Shown here piece by piece: positions 1-10,042 of a DNA stretch of 10,396 nt (the first letter of the stretch is position 1; each line of letters starts with the position of its first letter). Location of the stretch: contig JAIWOM010000031.1 in NCBI GenBank assembly GCA_020216895.1, forward strand, positions 1-10,396, read 5' to 3'. The translations under genes and the position numbers were made by a program. The DNA is from Microcella sp. (GTDB taxonomy: Bacteria > Actinomycetota > Actinomycetes > Actinomycetales > Microbacteriaceae). The notes beneath the pieces were generated by a model. It did no database searches and had not been told where the DNA came from. It saw nothing but the letters and a program-made list of their open reading frames with translations.

Positions 1-226
1 GAACACGTTGTCGACGGCGAGCGACTTCTCGATGAGGTAGCCGGCGTAGTACTGCTGGCCCAGCTCGGCCCCGTACTCCCACCAGATGTAGCCACCGAAG
101 GCGACGCCGAGGGTCACCCAGATGATCGACCAGATGGCCGCTTCTCGCACGCCGATGACGTGCGCTTTTCGGTGGGCGAAGAGGTCGATGGCGAGCATCG
201 CGAGGATGACGCCGAGCACGGCTAGC
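1..226 (-). pseudogene. terC: terC, main (3') portion, cut off from its start by the IS481-type element
   Basis: TerC-family integral membrane protein; family members are linked to manganese export or metal handling at the membrane. The minus strand reads without a stop to the window edge. It shows a hydrophobic helix (AVLGVILAMLAIDLF), then AHRKAHVIGVREAAIWS, a second helix region, and the family hallmark EKSLAVDNVF at the edge. The frame runs straight into the element at 226/227, so the native start and first codons are missing here; they sit at 2844-2872 beyond the element. No internal stop is visible, so the damage is the insertion alone. A GTG at 219-217 (codon 11 of the rebuilt gene) lies in frame 2 nt after the transposase stop and could serve as a new start. 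The rest of the gene lies outside the window. Family identity is confident; whether any protein is made is unknown. Confidence 0.88.
221..226. repeat. Target-site duplication, left copy (GCTAGC)
   Basis: GCTAGC directly precedes the TGTACTGACC end. The identical hexamer follows the other end at 2844-2849, and the flanking bases differ on both sides, which fixes the duplication at 6 bp. It fits NCTAGN. Its TAG, read on the minus strand at 224-222, is the transposase stop codon. Confidence 0.9.
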
Positions 227-1208
227 TGTACTGACCGGAGACGTTGGTCAATCGTGAGAAGGGCGGCTGGTTCCCGCAGGCCGTGTGGGGCCGGTGATGG
301 TTGTAGTAGTGCAGCCATCCGTCGAGTTCGCCGCGGCGCTCCGTCTCGGAGGTGTAGCAGCGGGCGTATGCCCAGCCGTCGGCCAGGGTGCGGTGGAAGC
401 GCTCGATCTTGCCGTTGGTCTGAGGGCGATACGGCCTGGTCCGTTTGTGCCTGATACCGAGCTCGGCGCAGGTGTCGCGCCACAGGTGTGAGCGATATGC
501 CCCGCCGTTGTCCGACAGAACCCGCTCGACGGTCACCCCGCGGGCGTTGAACCACTCGACGGCCCTCACCAGGACCGCGGTGGCGGTGTGGGCTGTTTCG
601 TCGTCGTGGATCTCGGCGTAGGCGACGCGGGAGTGGTCGTCGATGACGGTGTGGACGTAGGCCTTGCCCATCAACGGGTCGGAGTACTTGCTCCTGAGCT
701 TGCCTGGTGTAGCTGCCCGGTTCTTCTCGCCCTGTCGGCGTCCGACGTAGCGCCAGCCTCCGCCGTCGGGGATGTTGCCGAGCTTCTTCACGTCGACGTG
801 GAGCATCGCGCCGGGATGGTCGTGCTCGTAACGGCGCACCGGTTCCCCCGTGGCGCGGTCCACATGCGACAGCCGGTTCAGGTGGGCGTCGGTCAGGATC
901 CGGTGGACCGTCGACGGCGCGATCCCCAGCCGACACGCCAACTGCACGGGTCCTTCTCGGAGTCGTAGCCGCAGCTGGATACAGCGGCGAGTGACCGTCG
1001 GGCTGATCTTGTTCGGTGAGTGGTGCGGTCGGGAAGACCGGTCCTGCATGGACTCGCCCGCTCGGTAGCGGCCGGTCCAGCGTTTGACGGTGGGCCAAGA
1101 GACCTGGAAGCGGGCGGCAACCTCGCTGATCGGCCATCCGTCGTCGACGACGAGTTGGGCGACCTTCAAGCGGTGACGCGGTGTGAGGGCGGCATTGGCG
1201 TGGGGCAT
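222..1208 (-). CDS. IS481-family DDE transposase
   Basis: A 328-residue transposase that would cut and rejoin the element ends. Residues about 10-75 form the N-terminal helix-turn-helix region (EVAARFQVSWPTVKRW), and a second HTH-like stretch lies near 85-110 (ACRLGIAPSTVHRIL). The rve/integrase core follows, with catalytic residues readable as D139 (HVDVKKLG), D233 (SDNGGAY) and E269 (NGKIERFHRTL). The 35 residues between the second D and the E are the expected spacing, and the NHHRPHTA motif near the C-terminus is typical. All catalytic residues are present and the frame is intact, so it may be active. The final codons run through the left terminal repeat: the last Ser codon takes two bases, and the stop TAG all three, from the duplicated target GCTAGC. 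A 15-bp hairpin lies between it and the passenger genes, so it may depend on its own promoter or on read-through. Confidence 0.95.
   Translation of the reverse strand: MPHANAALTPRHRLKVAQLVVDDGWPISEVAARFQVSWPTVKRWTGRYRAGESMQDRSSRPHHSPNKISPTVTRRCIQLRLRLREGPVQLACRLGIAPSTVHRILTDAHLNRLSHVDRATGEPVRRYEHDHPGAMLHVDVKKLGNIPDGGGWRYVGRRQGEKNRAATPGKLRSKYSDPLMGKAYVHTVIDDHSRVAYAEIHDDETAHTATAVLVRAVEWFNARGVTVERVLSDNGGAYRSHLWRDTCAELGIRHKRTRPYRPQTNGKIERFHRTLADGWAYARCYTSETERRGELDGWLHYYNHHRPHTACGNQPPFSRLTNVSGQYS
227..249. repeat. Left terminal inverted repeat of the IS481-type element
   Basis: The 23 bp beginning TGTACTGACC pair with the reverse complement of 2821-2843 at 20 of 23 positions. Mismatches are at repeat positions 11, 13 and 21. 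The transposase coding region runs through this repeat to the very end of the element. Confidence 0.9.
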
Positions 1209-1243
1209 GGTGGTCTTCCTGGTGACGAGCGGGTGGAGACGGT

Positions 1244-1277
1244 GATGGGGGCTGCACCCTGTGGTGCAGCCCCCATC
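1244..1277 (-). terminator. Strong hairpin after the passenger operon
   Basis: A perfect 15-bp inverted repeat (arms 1244-1258 and 1263-1277, GATGGGGGCTGCACC and its complement) encloses a 4-nt loop. It lies 11 bp beyond the small-protein stop codon and before the transposase start. No T-tract follows on the minus strand, so terminator function is inferred from stem strength and position. It may also keep passenger transcription out of the transposase gene. Confidence 0.7.
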
Positions 1278-1288
1278 GATTCGGTATG

Positions 1289-1450
1289 TCAGTTGCCGTC
1301 CGTGTCCTCGCGGTTCGGCGCTGAAGAGGCAGCCGTCTCGGTGGGCGTTCCCTGCTCGCTCTGGGGCTGGTCGTCATCGTCGGGCACGATCTGGGCTCCG
1401 CAGCAACTGCTGTCCTGCTTGCGTGCGGTGAAGAGGTCCTTGAGTCCCAT
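1289..1450 (-). CDS. Small Cys-Cys acidic protein (53 aa), third gene of the passenger operon
   Basis: The start ATG (1450-1448) is preceded by GAGGAG about 11 nt upstream, and the frame ends in TGA at 1291-1289. The product begins MGLKDLFTARKQDSSCCGAQ. It has adjacent Cys16 and Cys17 in an SSCCG motif, then an acidic run (PDDDD) and a low-complexity polar tail ending in DTDGN. It has no signal peptide or membrane helix, so it should be cytoplasmic. It starts 43 nt after the permease stop, before the operon hairpin, so it is probably co-transcribed with arsR and the permease. The vicinal cysteines could bind a thiophilic metal or metalloid, for example delivering it to the permease. That role is inference; I do not recognise a named family. 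Confidence 0.72.
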   Translation of the reverse strand: MGLKDLFTARKQDSSCCGAQIVPDDDDQPQSEQGTPTETAASSAPNREDTDGN

Positions 1451-1493
1451 GGTTGTTTGTTCTCCTCGTGTGGTTGGGAATGTGGTGGTGGGG

Positions 1494-2372
1494 TCAGGCG
1501 ATCAGTGGGATGAGGTAGCCAGCGGCGATGGCCGTGCCGATGACAGTGACCACGAAAGTGACGACCAGTCGGGGCTTGAACAAGGCGGTGAGCATCGAGA
1601 TCTCGGGGATCGAGGCTCCGGCGCCGCCGATCATCAGCGCGAACACTGCCCCTAGCCCCATACCGGCCGAGCTGAGGGCCAAGCCGATGGGCAACATCGT
1701 CTCGATCCGCACGTAAAGCGGAACGCCAAGCACGGCGGCCAACGGCACGGCCCATGGCTTGTCGTCGCCAGCGACCGCGGCGAGTTGGTCCTGAGGCACG
1801 AAACCGTAGATAAATGCACCGACCGAGACACCCAGCACCATCGGGACGAGCAGCGGTCTCAGATCGGCCCAGGCCTCGCCGAGTGCGGGCCGGATCTCGT
1901 TGCGCAGTCCCGCCCAGGGGCGGGGGGTGCTGTCGTCGCCGACGACCTTGACTCGCTTGAGCTGGCTGGCCATACCGAGTCGTTCCCATACGAGGGGGGC
2001 GAGCAGGGACCATGCGGCGGTGACCACCGTGTAGACCAACGCGATACGCCAGCCGAACAGCAGCACCACCCCGGCCACGATGATGGGATCCAGCAGCGGT
2101 GACGAGATCAGGAAGGTCATCGACGTCCGGAACGCCACCCCCGACTTCAACATCCCAGCCAGCACCGGCAGCGTCGAACAGGAACAGAACGGCGTGATCG
2201 CCCCCAGCAGTAGCCCTTTGACCGGGCCGGGAAGGCGCCCATCGGCCATCCAGCTCTGGATCCGATCCGGCCCGAACCGCCGGTTCACCAGCGCAACGAG
2301 AACCGAGATCAGCGAGAACAGGACGAGCAACTCGACCAGGATCAACCCGAAGGTCTGTACCGCATGAATCAC
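1494..2372 (-). CDS. COG0701/ArsP-type permease (putative metalloid or organoarsenical efflux)
   Basis: A 292-residue polytopic inner-membrane protein of the permease family PF03773 (formerly DUF318). Members include ArsP, which exports trivalent organoarsenicals. Helices cover roughly residues 5-29, 53-75, 85-106, 108-128, 172-192, 207-224, 233-253 and 267-291. The family signature TPFCSCSTLPV (60-70) holds Cys63 and Cys65, the likely metalloid ligands. SSPLLDP (90-96) and GGAGASIPE (249-257) are the other conserved stretches. A cytoplasmic loop of about 45 residues (130-171) splits two halves. It starts with GTG overlapping the arsR stop (GTGA, 2372-2369), so it is translationally coupled to the repressor. 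Length is normal and no key residue is missing. The exact substrate (organoarsenical, arsenite or another soft metal) cannot be told from sequence. Confidence 0.9.
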   Translation of the reverse strand: MIHAVQTFGLILVELLVLFSLISVLVALVNRRFGPDRIQSWMADGRLPGPVKGLLLGAITPFCSCSTLPVLAGMLKSGVAFRTSMTFLISSPLLDPIIVAGVVLLFGWRIALVYTVVTAAWSLLAPLVWERLGMASQLKRVKVVGDDSTPRPWAGLRNEIRPALGEAWADLRPLLVPMVLGVSVGAFIYGFVPQDQLAAVAGDDKPWAVPLAAVLGVPLYVRIETMLPIGLALSSAGMGLGAVFALMIGGAGASIPEISMLTALFKPRLVVTFVVTVIGTAIAAGYLIPLIA

Positions 2373-2767
2373 CGCGCAGCACCCTCAGTCGATGCCTGAC
2401 CCTCCCCTGCTGGGGCAGTGCAGCACGCCTTCTGTCCCTCTGGAGTGAGAGTCGCCAAGTGAGCGAGCCACTGCACCGGCGCCGCCAACTGCTCACAACA
2501 CAGCTCGTAGATGTTGGACCGGCCCTCGGCCCGCACACTGATCAGCCGCGCTTCCCGCAAGGCTGCCACATGGTGACTCACCAGCGCCTGGCTCAACCCG
2601 GTGGCCTCCTGCAACTGCTTGTTCGAGCACGCCCCCGCCGCAAGCGTCAGCACGATCATCAGTCTGTTCTCGTCTGACAAAGGCTTCAACAACGGAGCAA
2701 GCATCCGCGCGTGATCCCGCGCCGACAGGTCCGTGCGCGGCATGGCAACATCCAGTGAAACTGTCAT
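2369..2767 (-). CDS. ArsR/SmtB-family metalloregulatory repressor
   Basis: A 132-residue winged-helix repressor, expected to bind the promoter dyad just upstream and to release it on binding metal or metalloid. PLLKPLSDENRLMIVLTLAAG (25-45) is the opening helix pair; TGLSQALVSHHVAALREARL (56-75) is the helix-turn-helix; ISVRAEGRSNIYEL is the wing. The classical ELCVCDL arsenic site is absent. Cysteines occur instead at 47, in the pair 90-91 (ELCCEQL) and in the pair 115-116 (KACCTAP), so the sensing site is probably of a different ArsR subtype. I chose ATG 2767 because the frame's upstream TTG (2803) is part of the -35 box; transcription predicted from the -10 box would begin at this ATG, making a leaderless mRNA. 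Its stop overlaps the permease start. Confidence 0.9.
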   Translation of the reverse strand: MTVSLDVAMPRTDLSARDHARMLAPLLKPLSDENRLMIVLTLAAGACSNKQLQEATGLSQALVSHHVAALREARLISVRAEGRSNIYELCCEQLAAPVQWLAHLATLTPEGQKACCTAPAGEGQASTEGAAR

Positions 2768-2773
2768 ACCCAC

Positions 2774-2816
2774 ACTATAGACAAGCGCTTCTTTGTGTGA
2801 CAAGTGGGCACTTGTC
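2774..2816 (-). promoter_or_regulatory. arsR operon promoter with overlapping palindromic operator
   Basis: On the minus strand a -35 TTGTCA (2803-2798) and -10 TATAGT (2779-2774) are 18 nt apart. The A of the arsR ATG at 2767 is 7 nt past the -10. A perfect dyad, GACAAGTG-GG-CACTTGTC (2799-2816), covers the -35, and a partial copy (GACAAGCGCTT, 2780-2790) lies in the spacer. This is the usual layout for ArsR autorepression. The operator lies just inside the right terminal repeat, so the unit is self-contained. Confidence 0.82.
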
Positions 2817-2820
2817 TAAC

Positions 2821-2843
2821 GATCAACGTCCCTGGTCAGTACA
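2821..2843. repeat. Right terminal inverted repeat of the IS481-type element
   Basis: This ends in GGTCAGTACA, the exact inverse of the first ten bases of the left end; 20 of 23 bases match overall. It directly abuts the second GCTAGC. Confidence 0.9.
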
Positions 2844-2849
2844 GCTAGC
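2844..2849. repeat. Target-site duplication, right copy (GCTAGC)
   Basis: Identical to 221-226. Removing the element and one copy joins the codons TGG-CTA-GCC-GTG in the terC frame. Confidence 0.9.
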
Positions 2850-2872
2850 CAGAGCCAAAGGGGAACGTCCAC
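2844..2872 (-). pseudogene. terC: terC, start codon and first codons (5' fragment)
   Basis: On the minus strand GTG (2872-2870) opens MDVPLWLWL, a typical TerC N-terminus. AGGAG lies upstream at 2884-2880 with a 7-nt spacer, which decides the start. With the element removed, the frame continues directly into AVLGVILAM at 219 and beyond. In the present arrangement translation from this GTG would enter the element and stop at TAG (2818-2816), giving an 18-residue peptide that ends inside the arsR operator. The fragment keeps its riboswitch and ribosome-binding site. Confidence 0.87.
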
Positions 2873-2879
2873 AGAGAAT

Positions 2880-2905
2880 CTCCTGAATCGATGAGGGTTC
2901 AGGAG
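2880..2905 (-). promoter_or_regulatory. Hairpin hiding the terC ribosome-binding site (riboswitch expression platform)
   Basis: The minus-strand RNA contains CTCCTGAA (2905-2898) and TTCAGGAG (2887-2880) around a 10-nt loop, a perfect 8-bp stem whose 3' arm holds the AGGAG of terC. The 5' arm shares CTCC with the 3' strand of the aptamer's P1 helix (CCTCC, 2906-2902). The two structures therefore exclude each other: P1 formed leaves the ribosome site free, P1 open lets the hairpin close. Confidence 0.8.
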
Positions 2906-3013
2906 GTCTCTCCCAGCGCCGCCGATCGGTGACCGGTGCGCCCCCGCTGCCGGACGCGCATGAGCGCGACGCAATGACGACAACAGGCGAAGACGGGGAT
3001 ACTCCCCTCCGCC
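2902..3013 (-). ncRNA. yybP-ykoY (Mn2+) riboswitch aptamer upstream of terC
   Basis: The minus-strand leader holds the two sequence hallmarks of this family. GGGGAGTA (3007-3000) follows P1 strand GGAGG (3010-3006); the distal loop motif CGTCATTGCG (2979-2970) comes later. P1 closes with CCTCC (2906-2902) after a GAGA stretch. Internal pairings CCCCG/CGGGG and CTGTTG/CGGCAG fit the two stacked arms whose loops dock on Mn2+. TerC-family genes are established members of this regulon, so class and neighbour agree. The motif search was by eye; a covariance model search against RF00080 would settle it. Confidence 0.87.
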
Positions 3014-3041: not shown

Positions 3042-3152
3042 GCGCCCCCTGTCGCGGCCTAGAGCTTGCTGTGAACGATGTCGCGCCGCGGCGGCGCCGG
3101 TGTCGGGCTCTAGGGTCGAAGGGCACCTCGCTCCTTCATGAAAGGCACCGTC

Positions 3153-3512
3153 ATGGCCATCGTCTGCCGCACCGGCTCTGTGACCCGCGCCGACCAGACC
3201 CACACCCCGCTCGAGCTGCCGCTGGCCGACCCGCTCGGCGCTGACATCGCGACCACCTACCTGGAGGTGTTCTCCGGCAAGGCCAGCTCGCTCGACGTGG
3301 GCATCTGGGAGACCGACCCGGGCCGTTCGCGGTGGGAGTTCACCGACAGCGGCGAGGTCATCTACGTCATCTCGGGCCGCATGACTGTTACCGAGGACGG
3401 CAAGGAGGCTCAGCACATCGAGCCCGGCGACCTCGTGATCTTCCCCGTCGGTTGGCAGGGCTTCTGGGAGGTCACCGAGCCGCTGAAGAAGGTCTACGTC
3501 ATCTTCGAATGA
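3153..3512 (+). CDS. Cupin protein, DUF861/COG3450 type
   Basis: A 119-residue single-domain cupin resembling PF05899 (Cupin_3), related to the (S)-ureidoglycine aminohydrolase fold. Visible motifs are DVGIWETDPGRSRWEF (48-63), then EVIYVISGRMTVTEDG (68-83), PGDLVIFPVGWQGFWEV (91-107) and the family's closing strand KKVYVIFE. The usual first-motif His pair is not evident (Glu68 occupies part of it), so the metal site, if any, is of the DUF861 type. I prefer the ATG at 3153 because AAAGG lies 7 nt upstream; the ATG at 3138 lacks a comparable site. It is cytoplasmic, with no signal peptide. It is divergent from the terC leader and convergent with the DUF1801 gene. Substrate is unknown. Confidence 0.85.
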   Translation: MAIVCRTGSVTRADQTHTPLELPLADPLGADIATTYLEVFSGKASSLDVGIWETDPGRSRWEFTDSGEVIYVISGRMTVTEDGKEAQHIEPGDLVIFPVGWQGFWEVTEPLKKVYVIFE

Positions 3513-3537
3513 CGGATGCGGCGCCGCGGCCGCGCGC

Positions 3538-4005
3538 TCAGCCGACCGCGCGCCGCACGAGCTCGGTGATGCGCTGCTCTTCGACCGGCCCGATACTCAT
3601 GACCGCGAACGACGCCGGCCACATCGACCCGTCGTCGAGCTGCGCGGTGTCGTTGAACCCGAGCGTCGTGTAGAGGGTGTCGAACTTGCTGGCGGGCTGC
3701 ACGAAGCACAGCACCTTGCCGTCGAGCGCGTAGGCGGGCATGCCGTACCAGGTGCGCGGACCCAGCTGCGGAGCCGCCGCCATGATCAGCTCGTGCAGTC
3801 GCGTGGCGAGCGCCCGGTCGCCCTCGTCGGGAAGCTTCGCGATTGCCTCGAGCAGGTCGTTGAGCTCGGCCTCGGCCTTGGCGGCGCCCTTGGCCCGCTT
3901 CGCCTCGGCGCGCAGCTCGGCCGCCCGCTCTTTCATCGCGGCGCGCTCGTCCGCGGTGAACCCGTCATTGCCGGTGGATGCTCTGCCCTCAGCCATGCGG
4001 GCCAT
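3538..4005 (-). CDS. DUF1801 (YdhG/YjbR-like) small protein
   Basis: A 155-residue cytoplasmic protein. Residues about 15-60 form a charged Ala/Glu/Lys/Arg helix (a possible coiled coil). The DUF1801 core follows: LHELIMAAAPQLGPRTWYGMPAYALDGKVLCFVQPASKF (70-108), then YTTLGFND and a C-terminal helix VEEQRITELVRRAVG. The WYGMPAY motif is the family's best-conserved part. The fold is related to the CyaY/YjbR-like proteins; biochemical function is not settled, though some members are annotated as iron chaperones. Neither start has a strong ribosome site. ATG 4005 is the longest, and ATG 3996 (MAEGRAS) is equally possible. It lies 95 nt downstream of the HNH gene on the same strand and may share its transcript. 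Confidence 0.82.
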   Translation of the reverse strand: MARMAEGRASTGNDGFTADERAAMKERAAELRAEAKRAKGAAKAEAELNDLLEAIAKLPDEGDRALATRLHELIMAAAPQLGPRTWYGMPAYALDGKVLCFVQPASKFDTLYTTLGFNDTAQLDDGSMWPASFAVMSIGPVEEQRITELVRRAVG

Positions 4006-4100
4006 CGTTCCACTGCTCGGCGGTGGTGTCGAGGTCTGGAGAATCCTGAACCCAAGGAAGTGCGACAGCTCAGCGAGAGATCGCGTCGAATAGCTCCTTG

Positions 4101-4997
4101 CTAGGAGGCGAAGCGGGCGAAGCGTTCAGCGAGGTAGTCACGGTCGGGGCGGTCGTCGCGGCGGCTTGGAAGCTCGAGCGACTTGCCGTTCATCGCCTGG
4201 AGGCCGAACTGCAGCATAGGTCCGTCACGGTCGGCCAGCAGCCGTTCGTTGATGTAGACGATGTAGTCGGGGCTGACGCCCAGGAAGTCCTGGTCGTAGG
4301 CCGCGTGGTGGATCTTGCACATCGCCATGCCGTTCGTGACGATAGGCAGGCCGCGCTCGTCGTTGTCGCTGATGATGTGCGCAGCGTCCAACAGCTCGGG
4401 ATACCTGAGTGTGCAGACCGCGCACCGCTTGTTGTAGGCGTTGAGCACGCGTGCACGGAACATCGGCTGGTGCACCCGCTGCTTCACCACTCGGGCGACG
4501 TATGACTTGTCTAGCGGAACCTCGCGACCGGTGCGGAGTCGACTGTCATCGAGATCGATGATGAAGTGCCGCCTCTCGATGTCCACATCGATGACATAGA
4601 CGGGGAGTACCGGGACATAGAGATTGGGGAGCGGCTTCTCGAACAGGATGATCGGCGTTCCTGTCTGCAACGCGGCGAGGAGCTTCCGATTGTCTCCCGC
4701 GTCCAGCGGGCCTTTGGCCCAGGAGTAGCGGAGGAGCCCTGTTTCGCGGTCGATGGCGTCGTCGTAGGGGTTATTGCGCCCGCCGTCGCTCGCCGACACG
4801 ATAGCCAGCGTTGCGTCGAACTCCTGAGGGTTGCGGATTCCTCGCCCGGTGTCGATGAGGGGCATGCGCAGGCCGTTCTTCATGACGAAGCTGGTGAGCT
4901 CGTCACGGCTCGCGAAGCCGCCACGGGAGTCGATCAGCGCCTCGAGGTCAGCGAAGATCTCGAGCCGGAGCAGCGCCTGTTGCTCGCTGGACAGCAT
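4101..4997 (-). CDS. HNH endonuclease with N-terminal recognition domain; candidate modification-dependent restriction enzyme
   Basis: A 298-residue protein. Residues 1-70 form a helical head (FASRDELTSF, GRGIRNPQEFDATLAI). Residues about 75-145 (PYDDAIDRETGLLRY, GDNRKLLAAL, IILFEKPLPNLYVPVLPVYV) resemble the PUA/SRA-like or sulphur-binding modules seen in McrA-like enzymes such as ScoMcrA. The HNH_2-type nuclease lies at about 188-240: zinc ligands C192, C195, C227 and H230, with catalytic-site residues H207 (DAAHI) and N222 (TNGMAMCKIHH). All nuclease residues are present. ATG 4997 follows GAGGAGG by 4 nt. No methylase, dnd gene or other restriction subunit is nearby, which suits a stand-alone type IV enzyme cutting foreign modified DNA. 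HNH assignment is firm; modification dependence is inferred. Its base composition is less GC-rich than katG, which could reflect transfer. Confidence 0.87.
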   Translation of the reverse strand: MLSSEQQALLRLEIFADLEALIDSRGGFASRDELTSFVMKNGLRMPLIDTGRGIRNPQEFDATLAIVSASDGGRNNPYDDAIDRETGLLRYSWAKGPLDAGDNRKLLAALQTGTPIILFEKPLPNLYVPVLPVYVIDVDIERRHFIIDLDDSRLRTGREVPLDKSYVARVVKQRVHQPMFRARVLNAYNKRCAVCTLRYPELLDAAHIISDNDERGLPIVTNGMAMCKIHHAAYDQDFLGVSPDYIVYINERLLADRDGPMLQFGLQAMNGKSLELPSRRDDRPDRDYLAERFARFAS

Positions 4998-5022
4998 GAC
5001 GCCTCCTCATGTGGTTCCTCGC

Positions 5023-5051
5023 AGCCTAACTGCGAAACGAGCCATTTTCGA
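5023..5051 (-). promoter_or_regulatory. Promoter of the HNH gene
   Basis: Minus strand: -35-like TCGAAA (5051-5046), a 17-nt spacer, then -10 TAGGCT (5028-5023). The predicted start near 5017 leaves a leader of about 20 nt before the ATG at 4997, containing GAGGAGG. It lies just beyond the katG terminator. Confidence 0.6.
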
Positions 5052-5061
5052 GAGACGGGAA

Positions 5062-5091
5062 GGGCCGGGGCCTCCGTGGAGACCCCGGCCC
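5062..5091 (-). terminator. katG terminator hairpin
   Basis: Arms GGGCCGGGG (5062-5070) and CCCCGGCCC (5083-5091) pair perfectly. One C/A mismatch and four further pairs (CTCC/GGAG) close a very small loop. It begins 28 bp past the katG stop. Only a short T/C-rich stretch follows. Confidence 0.75.
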
Positions 5092-5119
5092 GAGCATCCG
5101 TCGCCGGAACAGCGGCTGA

Positions 5120-8109
<2,990 letters not shown>

Positions 8110-8116
8110 CGAAGCA

Positions 8117-8140
8117 GGCCCTCGGCTTTCACCGAGGGCC
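8117..8140. terminator. Bidirectional hairpin between the NYN gene and the tRNA cluster
   Basis: Perfect 9-bp arms GGCCCTCGG (8117-8125) and CCGAGGGCC (8132-8140) enclose a 6-nt loop. It begins 7 bp after the NYN stop and also lies downstream of tRNA-Phe on the minus strand, so it can serve both. There is no strong T-tract on either side. Confidence 0.7.
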
Positions 8141-8232
8141 GCGCCCGGTAGTCGAAACATCCGGGTTGTTATGTCCTTACGGTAGCAGTCCGTCCTGACA
8201 ATCGTGAGCGACGAAACCGCCAATTGACCATG

Positions 8233-8308
8233 TGGTGGCTCCGACGGGCGTCGATCCCGTGACCTCACGATTTTCAGTCGTGCGCTCTACCAACTGAGCT
8301 ACAGAGCC
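8233..8308 (-). tRNA. tRNA-Phe (GAA)
   Basis: The cloverleaf is readable on the minus strand: acceptor GGCTCTG with CGGAGCC, D-loop AGCTCAGTTGGTAGAGC, anticodon arm CACGA-CTGAAAA-TCGTG with GAA, T-arm containing GATCGAC, discriminator A at 8236 and an encoded CCA (8235-8233). It is last of the three-gene cluster. Confidence 0.96.
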
Positions 8309-8310
8309 GT

Positions 8311-8326
8311 GGGGCGGTGACGCCCC
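8311..8326. other. Short hairpin between tRNA-Asp and tRNA-Phe
   Basis: GGGGCG and CGCCCC flank a 4-nt loop in the spacer between the two tRNAs; a second weak inverted repeat (CCCTC/GAGGG) lies at 8341-8356. Most likely a processing structure of the polycistronic tRNA precursor. Confidence 0.4.
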
Positions 8327-8366
8327 GTACGGAACAAGCCCCCTCCGAGGAGAGGGCCCGTCGCCG

Positions 8367-8443
8367 TGGCGACCCTGACGGGACTTGAACCCGCGACCTC
8401 CGCCGTGACAGGGCGGCACGCTAACCAACTGCGCTACAGGGCC
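8367..8443 (-). tRNA. tRNA-Asp (GTC)
   Basis: Acceptor GGCCCTG pairs with CAGGGTC (one G-U). Anticodon arm GCCGCC-CTGTCAC-GGCGG carries GTC. The T-loop reads GGTTCAAGT. The discriminator is G (8370), as expected for tRNA-Asp, followed by an encoded CCA (8369-8367). Confidence 0.96.
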
Positions 8444-8472
8444 TTGCAGATATTCAATTGTAGGGCTGTTCG

Positions 8473-8545
8473 TGACCCCAACGGGATTCGAACCCGTGCT
8501 GCCGCCGTGAAAGGGCGGTGTCCTAGGCCACTAAACGATGGGGCC
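8473..8545 (-). tRNA. tRNA-Glu (TTC)
   Basis: Acceptor GGCCCCA pairs with TGGGGTC (one G-U). Anticodon arm CCGCC-CTTTCAC-GGCGG carries TTC. The T-loop is GGTTCGAAT and the discriminator A (8473). CCA is not encoded here, unlike in the other two genes. It is first of the cluster. Confidence 0.96.
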
Positions 8546-8579
8546 GTGGTGGCGCGAGCCGCACAGCAACCGGTGCACC

Positions 8580-8609
8580 AGCATACGGGTCGGGGGGCGA
8601 CTTCGCCAA
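8580..8609 (-). promoter_or_regulatory. Promoter of the tRNA Glu-Asp-Phe cluster
   Basis: Minus strand: -35 TTGGCG (8609-8604), an 18-nt spacer, -10 TATGCT (8585-8580). The predicted start near 8573 lies about 28 nt before tRNA-Glu. The 291-base stretch 8546-8836 holds this promoter and the divergent one below; I see no gene in it. Confidence 0.6.
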
Positions 8610-8750
8610 TCGGGTTCGGCGACGGTCCGGGCGACCTCCCGGCCGGCGGCGGCGCGGCGGGCTAGCGTCGCGGGCAGGATGCCCGAGCAGGGCTCGGCGA
8701 GCGGCACGCCCCCGTGGGGCGCGCCGTGCCTGGTCGCGGCGAGCATCCGT

Positions 8751-8759
8751 TGGTACTGT
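8751..8759 (+). promoter_or_regulatory. Extended -10 promoter candidate for the M23 peptidase gene
   Basis: TGG-TACTGT fits an extended -10 (TGN-TANNNT) and would start transcription near 8766, giving a leader of about 70 nt. That leader contains GTGAC (8785-8789) and its inverse GTCAC (8803-8807), a possible regulator site. No clear -35 is seen. Confidence 0.42.
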
Positions 8760-8836
8760 GGTCAATGGTGCTGGGGCGAGAGTTGTGACATAACGAAACG
8801 ACGTCACGACGACCACCTCGGCCAGAGGGGAAAGTC

Positions 8837-10042
8837 ATGCGGGCAACATCACGTCGGGGAACGGCGATCGTCGCGGCGCTCGCCGCCGTCGCCCTGCTCG
8901 TGACCGGCACCATCGCCGTCACCGAGAAGCCCGCCTACGCCGTCGACTACCCCTCCTGGAACGACGTGCTCGAGGCCCGCCGCGATGTCGCGCGCGCCCA
9001 GCAGAAGATCAAGGAGATCCGCGCCGCGATCGAGGCCATCACGGCCGAGGTCGAGCGCACGCAGGCCATCGCCCAGGAGAAGGGCGACATCTACTACGAG
9101 GCCCAGCTCGCCTTCGACGAGGCCGCCTACACCGCCGAGCAGCTGCAGGCGCAGGCCGACGAGGCCCAGGTGCGCGCCGACGGCTCCAAGCTGCGGGCGG
9201 GCCAGTTCGTCGCCGAGCTCGCGCGCTCGGGCGGCGGCGACCTGTCGGCCTCGCTGCTGACCAACCCCGGCCAGGCCGACGAACTGCTCTCGCGCCTCGG
9301 CTTCGCCAGCAAGATCACCGAGCAGGCCGAGGGCATCTACGCCGCGGCCCTGCAGGACCAGAACGCGGCGCAGTCGTTCACCGAGCAGGCCAACGTGGCC
9401 AAGGGCATCCGCGACGAGATGCGCGCCGAGGCGGAGGCCGCCTACCAGGAGGCGCAGGCCGCCGCCAAGGAGGCGCAGACCGCTCTGATCGCGCAGCAGG
9501 AGAACCAGGCGCGGCTCGAGGCGCAGCTGGCCGTGCTGGTCGAGAACCGCGACGCCACCGAGAAGGACTATCAGGCGGGCGTCCGCGCCCAGTACGGCGC
9601 CGGCTCGAGCGTCGACGCCGGCCAGATCGTCAACGGCTGGGTCGTGCCGGCGAGCGGCTACATCAGCTCGCCCTACGGCACACGCGTGCACCCGCTCTAC
9701 GGGTATGTGTCGTTCCACTCGGGCACCGACATCGCGGCCAGCTGCGGTCGTCCGATCTACGCGGCCTCCACCGGCACCGTCAGCTACGCCGGCTGGTACG
9801 GCGGCTATGGATACTACGTGCGCATCGACCACGGCAACGGCCTGACCTCGTCGTACGCCCACATCCAGGAGGGCGGCATCCTCGTGCAGCAGGGCCAGGA
9901 GGTCGTCGTCGGGCAGAACATCGCCAAGATCGGCACCACCGGCCTCTCCACCGGCTGCCACCTGCACGTTGAGATCCGCACCAACGGCAACCCGCAAGAC
10001 CCCGTGCCGTTCTTTCGCAGCAAGGGCCTCACCATTGGGTAG
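8837..10042 (+). CDS. Secreted coiled-coil M23 (LytM) peptidase
   Basis: A 401-residue exported cell-wall hydrolase or amidase activator, acting on peptidoglycan outside the membrane. The signal peptide spans about 1-35: RR near the N-terminus, hydrophobic IVAALAAVALLVTGTIAV, likely cleavage after AYA. Residues about 42-252 are Ala/Glu/Gln-rich with heptad-like coiled coils, broken by a short loop (SGGGDLSASLLTNPGQ, 131-146), an arrangement like EnvC/RipA-type proteins where the coil controls access. The LytM domain fills 265-390 with all zinc-site residues: H294 and D298 (FHSGTDIA), H342 (SYAHI), H375 and H377 (TGCHLHVEI). Cys303 and Cys374 could form a disulphide. ATG 8837 follows AGGGG by 6 nt. 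The intact site suggests an active enzyme rather than a degenerate activator. It is the first gene of a pair with the paralogue-like gene downstream. Confidence 0.94.
   Translation: MRATSRRGTAIVAALAAVALLVTGTIAVTEKPAYAVDYPSWNDVLEARRDVARAQQKIKEIRAAIEAITAEVERTQAIAQEKGDIYYEAQLAFDEAAYTAEQLQAQADEAQVRADGSKLRAGQFVAELARSGGGDLSASLLTNPGQADELLSRLGFASKITEQAEGIYAAALQDQNAAQSFTEQANVAKGIRDEMRAEAEAAYQEAQAAAKEAQTALIAQQENQARLEAQLAVLVENRDATEKDYQAGVRAQYGAGSSVDAGQIVNGWVVPASGYISSPYGTRVHPLYGYVSFHSGTDIAASCGRPIYAASTGTVSYAGWYGGYGYYVRIDHGNGLTSSYAHIQEGGILVQQGQEVVVGQNIAKIGTTGLSTGCHLHVEIRTNGNPQDPVPFFRSKGLTIG

Follow-up and report, generated by a model that had tools for sequence, protein, structure and literature searches.

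The DNA analysed here, called the window, is the 10,396-nucleotide (nt) contig JAIWOM010000031.1 of a Microcella sp. assembly (GCA_020216895.1). Positions 227-2843 of the window are occupied by one 2617-bp insertion sequence (IS) of the IS481 family, bounded by a single pair of ends, that interrupts a terC/alx-type gene. On the minus strand, its order is ArsR, permease, Cys-Cys peptide, hairpin and transposase. The features of the locus are the following (aa, amino acids):

1-219, minus strand: body of the terC/alx-type gene, which the insertion has separated from its probable GTG start codon (2872-2870)
221-226: left target duplication GCTAGC, within terC; the transposase gene takes its TAG stop from it
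222-1208, minus strand: IS481-family transposase, 328 aa (NCBIfam NF033577, 352.8 bits, cut-off 224; rve domains)
227-249, plus strand: left terminal inverted repeat, TGTACTGACCGGAGACGTTGGTC, overlapping the 3' end of the transposase gene
1244-1277, minus strand: terminator- or attenuator-like perfect hairpin with 15-bp arms, separating the cargo operon from the transposase start
1289-1450, minus strand: Cys-Cys peptide, 53 aa, no family match; conserved beside the permease also in locus L124
1494-2372, minus strand: PF03773 (ArsP_1) permease, 292 aa, with an FCSCS motif (157.4 bits, cut-off 32.3)
2369-2767, minus strand: ArsR/SmtB-family regulator with the Cys pairs CCEQL and ACC (HTH_5, 41.6 bits)
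2774-2816, minus strand: promoter-like site TTGTCA-18-TATAGT and palindrome GACAAGTG-GG-CACTTGTC
2821-2843, minus strand: right terminal inverted repeat (cargo end), TGTACTGACCAGGGACGTTGATC on the minus strand
2844-2849: right target duplication GCTAGC

The terminal inverted repeats are 23 bp each and match at 20 positions; an independent repeat detection in the window returned 30-nt arms (220-249 and 2821-2850, duplication included) that are 90% complementary. Both ends score 20/20 against their own shared consensus and the runner-up site in the window reaches 13/20, so that no internal copy of the ends was found in the window, in agreement with the initial annotation. The repeats start with 5'-TGT and are accompanied by a short NCTAGN duplication as in TnRErm46, which is what characterizes IS481 ends. 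The transposase-side end sits within the last transposase codons and the TAG stop (222-224) comes from the target duplication. With one transposase, one pair of ends and passengers unrelated to transposition inside, the unit has the composition of a transporter IS.

The transposase, ArsR and the permease are recognised between the ends through NF033577, HTH_5 and PF03773, respectively, and are enclosed together with the Cys-Cys peptide; a Pfam-type domain search also matched the integrase core in the transposase. No solved structure was found for the permease by sequence at E <= 1. ArsR further matches the metalloregulator model NF033788 (65.8 bits, cut-off 55), and its start (ATG at 2767) was chosen by analogy with the annotated length in plasmid pA2H1, described below. 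Six bases separate this ATG from the promoter-like site (2774-2803), and the 18-bp palindrome (2799-2816), which overlaps the -35 of that site immediately inside the cargo end, is the probable ArsR operator. A scan of positions 1-3000 for sigma-70 promoters gave only the ArsR site (with two spacings) and none directly before the transposase. No riboswitch or other RNA family was detected in the window, where cmscan gave three tRNAs and one match far below the gathering score. The cargo promoter/operator and the terminator-like hairpin that had been proposed from the sequence are, in this sense, present.

Joining the flanks of the element with one GCTAGC puts the TerC/Alx start back in reading frame. 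The empty site was found in five of the five relatives fetched (L119-L123), where the joined sequence aligns across the site with 81-94% identity; the left flank has some match in 29 of the 40 genomes searched, and the alignment through the site covered these five. No insertion-free allele was found in the Microcella assembly itself, the right flank being found once, plus an 80% partial match. Positions 1-52 of the window recur exactly in contigs C223 and C78 of this assembly, which probably reflects an assembly branch in the terC-like stretch.

A 2615-bp copy with 94.2% nt identity is present on the finished 8.4-kb Arthrobacter plasmid pA2H1, flanked by CCTAGA. This copy is the element ISArsp12, to which a third copy (L011), flanked by ACTAGC, is nearly identical. 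Since the window, pA2H1 and L011 each have the whole unit with its own NCTAGN duplication at a different locus, the cargo-bearing unit is represented at three distinct sites. These sites and the empty terC of the five relatives bear out the suggestion of the initial annotation that the passengers form a cargo cassette within one element, which would have moved as such. The records of L011 and of another locus, L083, carry titles (Vibrio cholerae 35D and a Phycisphaerae bin, respectively) ill-suited to actinobacterial elements; the flanks of L011 have 59-62% GC, and L083 and L049 have identical transposases. Both records are likely mislabelled or contaminated.

As ISArsp12 was named in 2018 as an IS481-family element of Arthrobacter sp. 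ANT_H2 (PMC6305408), the window element is a relative of a kind already in print. ISArsp12 resembles it in size, kind of ends, 6-bp CTAG duplication and ArsR and permease passengers; it differs in insertion site and duplication, and in a transposase that has 92.4% aa identity overall and 72-84% nt identity over gene bases 151-400 (counted from the ATG, as in all that follows). Its counterpart of the palindrome is less perfect. The isoform rule of ISfinder is approximately 95% nt and 98% transposase aa identity. The window element agrees with ISArsp12 in architecture, ends and cargo but stays below both values, and is an element close to ISArsp12 with a part-mosaic transposase.

The published description of ISArsp12 counts two passengers, the Cys-Cys peptide not being among them, and gives 86% nt identity to ISPfr21, an IS481-type relative with passengers (PMC6305408). 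Compared by description, ISPfr21 from Propionibacterium freudenreichii carries a TetR regulator and a protein of unknown function instead of ArsR and a permease (PMC2909200), and two kin with different cargo are in that respect already in the literature. TnRErm46/ISRe46 of Rhodococcus equi, whose cargo includes a TetR regulator and which is described as actively mobilised, shares with the window element the IS481-family transposase, the NCTAGN duplication and the target TAG that serves as transposase stop, but is 6.9 kb long and has other ends (TGTTGCGGGTCATGACGTTG) and a macrolide-resistance cargo (PMC6794481). ISPst2, of the ISL3 family, likewise combines an ArsR regulator with a putative permease (for ISPst2b, COG0701 is given), but its transposase belongs to another family and its passengers are said to share no similarity with those of ISArsp12 (PMC6305408). 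IS5564/Tn5564 is listed among the passenger-bearing IS481 elements (PMC8304765).

Among the nearest relatives of the window element, cargo is the rule. The sample consists of 87 loci: the 80 that rank highest in transposase similarity out of 305 relatives, another six on plasmids, and the window itself. Because of this ranking, it leans to near kin. Both ends were found in 75 of the 87 loci (61 cargo-bearing and 14 bare), the other 12 being without a second end. At transposase identities of at least 85%, there are 44 cargo-bearing elements and no bare one; the corresponding figures are five and one at 80-85%, 11 and two at 75-80%, and none and 11 at 60-75%. One cargo element (L058) was filed below 60% (39%) through its longest match, a nested element, its own transposase being 87.5% identical. 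The nearest bare element (L056) has 81% transposase identity and further bare elements with matching duplications have 61-77%. The passengers had been read as a departure from a transposase-only IS481 norm: their presence stands, but they are no departure in this clade, and a closer right end moving without the passengers was not seen in close kin. The 6-bp duplication of the window, GCTAGC on both sides, also has its parallel in these relatives. Identical 6-mers flank 44 of the 57 cargo elements with both flanks (41 of the 44 with a CTAG core) and 11 of 13 bare ones; where both sides have a CTAG core, window included, they are identical in 52 of 58 elements (8.8% expected), a count that favours matches because the pair with the best-matching 6-mers was taken at 10 loci with several possible end pairs.

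DNA clustering and manual merging yielded 22 cargo types, 21 with both ends plus L048; in types C and U, L058 and L067 were placed by the position of their open reading frames (ORFs). Some types share protein families, such as glyoxalase in four of them. With one or two representatives scanned for each type, mostly one, a regulator was recognised by Pfam or annotation in 20 of the 22: TetR in six, AraC in three (one with a DJ-1 domain), WYL and MarR in two each, and otherwise MerR-TipAS, XRE-cupin, ArsR, LysR, Rrf2, HxlR and one IclR/MarR-like protein. None was found among the ORFs scanned in types J (L016) and O (L020). The partners of these regulators include glyoxalases, EamA, ABC and MFS transporters, SnoaL-like and MDMPI-like proteins, and dehydrogenases. 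By hand count, the last identified gene before the transposase is co-oriented with it in 21 of the 22 types (the exception is F), type H having 700 unassigned bases before the transposase and type U a DoxX match below cut-off. A comparison of 24 rows by eye shows that, where the cargo differs, the common sequence amounts to some 25 bp at the cargo end plus the transposase ORF, with little in between. Strong folding (z <= -2.8 relative to simple base shuffles) of the 70 nt that precede the transposase start is seen in 14 of 24 representatives, with differing sequences, the other ten staying short of that value; of 10 bare elements, 9 have a strong hairpin extending to the transposase start. Hairpin protection against read-through is known from other IS, and these structures fit such a role. 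In some relatives, genes also lie downstream of the transposase inside the ends: a HEPN_AbiV gene in L062 (6897-7706), L063 (6972-7712) and L067 (6966-7706), with about 110 bits (cut-off 27.1), and a Schlafen/AlbA_2 gene in L039 (6984-8216; 38.8 bits, cut-off 25.3). These genes are defence-like.

Several transposase genes of this clade appear to be mosaic along their length. The cargoes of the window and ISArsp12 are 97.4% identical over 1635 bp; their transposase genes show identities of 0.88, 0.80, 0.72 and 0.83 in the first bins, then 0.91-0.97. Bases 151-600 of the window gene match L163 at 92-100%, ISArsp12 being there at 72-100% and lowest in 151-400, with both alike in bases 401-500 and 551-600; over bases 601-950, the values are 92-98% for ISArsp12 and 80-90% for L163. 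The window gene is therefore closest to ISArsp12 in bases 1-50 and ~601-980 and to L163 in bases ~151-550, bases 51-150 being undecided between them. Informative sites cluster in this three-way comparison (36 runs vs 73 expected, p = 0.0002). L163, whose flanks mismatch (GTTAGT/ACTAGG), carries WYL and glyoxalase genes and has 91% cargo identity with L014 (type A). Similar patterns are seen among other relatives. L012 and L029 are at 0.96-1.00 over the cargo and 0.99 in the first transposase bin, drop to 0.76-0.90 and end at 0.97-1.00; L019 and L023 have the cargo and ~490 bp of the transposase gene in common; and L009, L012 and L013 have middle transposase bins at 0.95-1.00 and three different cargoes, with breakpoints for L009/L012 and L012/L013 (p = 0.0005). 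In the transposase tree, L005 forms a long doubtful branch and bootstrap is unsettled.

The linkage between cargo and transposase was tested on 44 dereplicated rows with 48 same-cargo pairs, L055 and L058 being dropped as gappy. The excess identity of same-cargo pairs in seven segments along the gene is 0.059 (first 98 bp), 0.023, 0.056, 0.016, 0.021, 0.017 and 0.002 (last 164 bp), with label-shuffle p values of 0.0002, 0.0014, 0.0002, 0.006, 0.048, 0.034 and 0.40, respectively; the difference between the 5' and 3' excess has p = 0.0002. Cargo and transposase are not strictly coupled: shared cargo tracks transposase-gene similarity on the 5' side, not on the 3' side. Since the cargo and one end lie 5' of the gene and the other end lies 3', a crossover explains this 5'-linked pattern simply, and because a single crossover in the gene joins one element's cargo end to another's transposase end, we infer that elements reassort their cargo through homologous recombination in this gene. 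The window element itself appears to show such recombination, having the ISArsp12 cargo with a tract of ~400 bp like the transposase of a WYL/glyoxalase element. A small search of open-licence papers found, in the parts covered, no description of passenger exchange in IS481. As far as searched, the apparent novelties compared to the literature are cargo as the rule at transposase identities of at least 85%, its 22 types and its loose coupling to the transposase.

The function of the window cargo was approached through kin that are free of transposases. In the listed matches from 396 genomes of the order, permease identity exceeds 60% only in the Microcella genome and in G290, where the three cargo genes stand together (locus L124; ArsR 67%, permease 65%) with no transposase or end. 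Preceding ArsR-permease-Cys-Cys peptide in L124 are acr3 (435 bits, cut-off 282.8), an ArsC-like gene (87.6 bits, cut-off 215) and ArsO, matched in two pieces (222.5 and 316.5 bits, cut-off 425). The ArsO monooxygenase gene of this ars cluster is split over two frames (L124:2617-3685), both pieces matching NF040505. ArsR matches at E <= 1e-25 occur in three of the 394 genomes of the class, the Microcella one included; the other two (L158 and L159) have ArsR-permease kin and no transposase. In L159, this pair adjoins an arsenite methyltransferase gene (285 bits, cut-off 263). The same locus encodes a phosphonopyruvate decarboxylase (374 bits, cut-off 312.5) and a phosphoglycerate mutase (373 bits, cut-off 330.65), and may be an organoarsenical pathway or biosynthesis cluster. 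L160 has an ArsR homologue (54%) without permease kin beside ArsB (636 bits, cut-off 457) and an ArsC-like gene (68 bits, cut-off 215). The transposase-free kin lack ends (best end score 15/20), and the CCE and ACC cysteine pairs are kept in the ArsR homologues. The Cys-Cys peptide has seven database relatives plus the one in L124; that it is a metalloid carrier is a guess. The ars-gene neighbours of the transposase-free kin support arsenical efflux as the likely function of the cargo, whichever the form of arsenic. Of the soft-metal or organoarsenical export suggested initially, arsenical efflux is thus favoured, the exported substance being deduced from gene context. Passengers at terC without a transposase, which would have spoken against a mobile cassette, were not found, the transposase-free homologues of L124 sitting in an ars cluster.

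Taken together, we consider it probable that the window contains a complete IS481 transporter element with an ArsR-controlled arsenical-efflux operon as a fixed part, and that cargo is reassorted within its clade by recombination in the transposase gene. The transposase would recognise both ends and insert at CTAG; ArsR would repress from the palindrome just inside the cargo end and be released when its vicinal cysteines bind a trivalent arsenical; the permease would export the arsenical, and the hairpin before the transposase would limit read-through. Elsewhere in the clade, 21 further cargo types are found with like ends and transposases, most of them consisting of a regulator plus an enzyme or transporter, and a crossover within the transposase gene would swap cargo between elements. 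Several observations weigh against this interpretation. The element is single-copy in its own assembly, which is 71% complete. Bases 1-150 of its transposase gene match ISArsp12 at only 86.6%, and the same-cargo excess falls unevenly along the gene (0.056 in the third segment). The label shuffles ignore the relatedness of rows, the seven breakpoint pairs were picked by eye with uncorrected p values, and a PHI-type incompatibility test applied to this alignment did not reach significance (p = 0.24, 185 sites). Many of the mosaic rows come from drafts with multicopy elements, and matching duplications are absent in some of them (the L009 inner pair, L018, L029 and L163). As to function, the three ORFs tested in L158 gave no family match, an NCBIfam search gave no ArsP equivalog for the permease, and since the other exporter models discussed below are far below cut-off, the substrate assignment rests on neighbour genes.

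One possible, if rather doubtful, alternative is that cargo turns over mainly by capture through outer ends, the inner ends and old cargo decaying and mosaicism being a side effect. Capture would account for the composite units (L009, L025, L063 and L067) whose outer duplications match and which enclose an additional inner end, for elements touching across a 6-bp CTAG spacer (L067 and L070), and for genes located behind a C-terminally shortened transposase (L062, L063 and L067) or behind the transposase (L039 and L047). Nevertheless, capture alone would not lead one to expect the transposase genes of same-cargo elements to be alike in their 5' part and not in their 3' part, or a stretch inside such a gene to derive from another element. 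The tandem-junction pattern (at most three mismatches) was found in 0 of the 394 class genomes, and tandem junctions were rejected as a common route of cargo capture. The composite units suggest that new cargo also arrives by a second route. Capture candidates are located at L009:5132-9875, L025:1348-6982 and L063:3747-7729; end-to-end junctions are at L067:1781-7723, whose outer duplications match (ACTAGA) as if moved together, and L070:1254-1283.

It is unlikely that the cargo exports another soft element or a thiol-linked compound (Cu/Zn, Se or Sb) instead of arsenicals. The permease does have weak matches to NCBIfam SaoE (79.8 bits) and to the SO_0444 Cu/Zn exporter (72.3 bits), far below the respective cut-offs of 325 and 300; yet its transposase-free kin adjoin acr3, arsC-like, arsO, arsB and arsenite methyltransferase genes. 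Finally, that the element is an ordinary ISArsp12-like copy, with mosaic transposases as assembly artefacts and cargo variety as old divergence, seems improbable: most loci are indeed drafts, ISArsp12 is already published with the same cargo and the PHI-type test was not significant, but the window, L003 (a finished plasmid), L012, L013, L019 and L023 have identical duplications on both sides, a match that a mid-element mis-join would break about nine times in ten (given the 8.8% chance figure), and breakpoints are nonetheless present in the pairs window/L003, L012/L013 and L019/L023 (p = 0.0005 each).

The rest of the window (3138-10042) contains, by eye only, genes for cupin-like, DUF1801-like, HNH endonuclease-like, NYN-domain-like and peptidase M23-like proteins, as well as a catalase-peroxidase-like gene within 5120-7510; the three tRNAs found by cmscan are at 8236-8545.

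These results suggest that the clade is a transporter IS variant with exchangeable cargo. Going further, we tentatively propose, as one conceivable view, a cargo-exchange system in which the ends and transposase would serve as the chassis and the transposase gene as the recombination anchor; since the transposase is the last gene behind an inducible cargo operon and hairpin, the cargo inducer may raise transposition. IS elements are mostly treated as transposase-only units. In the nearest kin of the window element, cargo is instead the rule, mostly a small module with its own regulator, and these modules appear exchangeable. If true, this would provide a compact actinobacterial route for moving regulated detoxification traits between plasmids and chromosomes, and the acquisition of cargo by a simple IS would become directly testable with two small elements.

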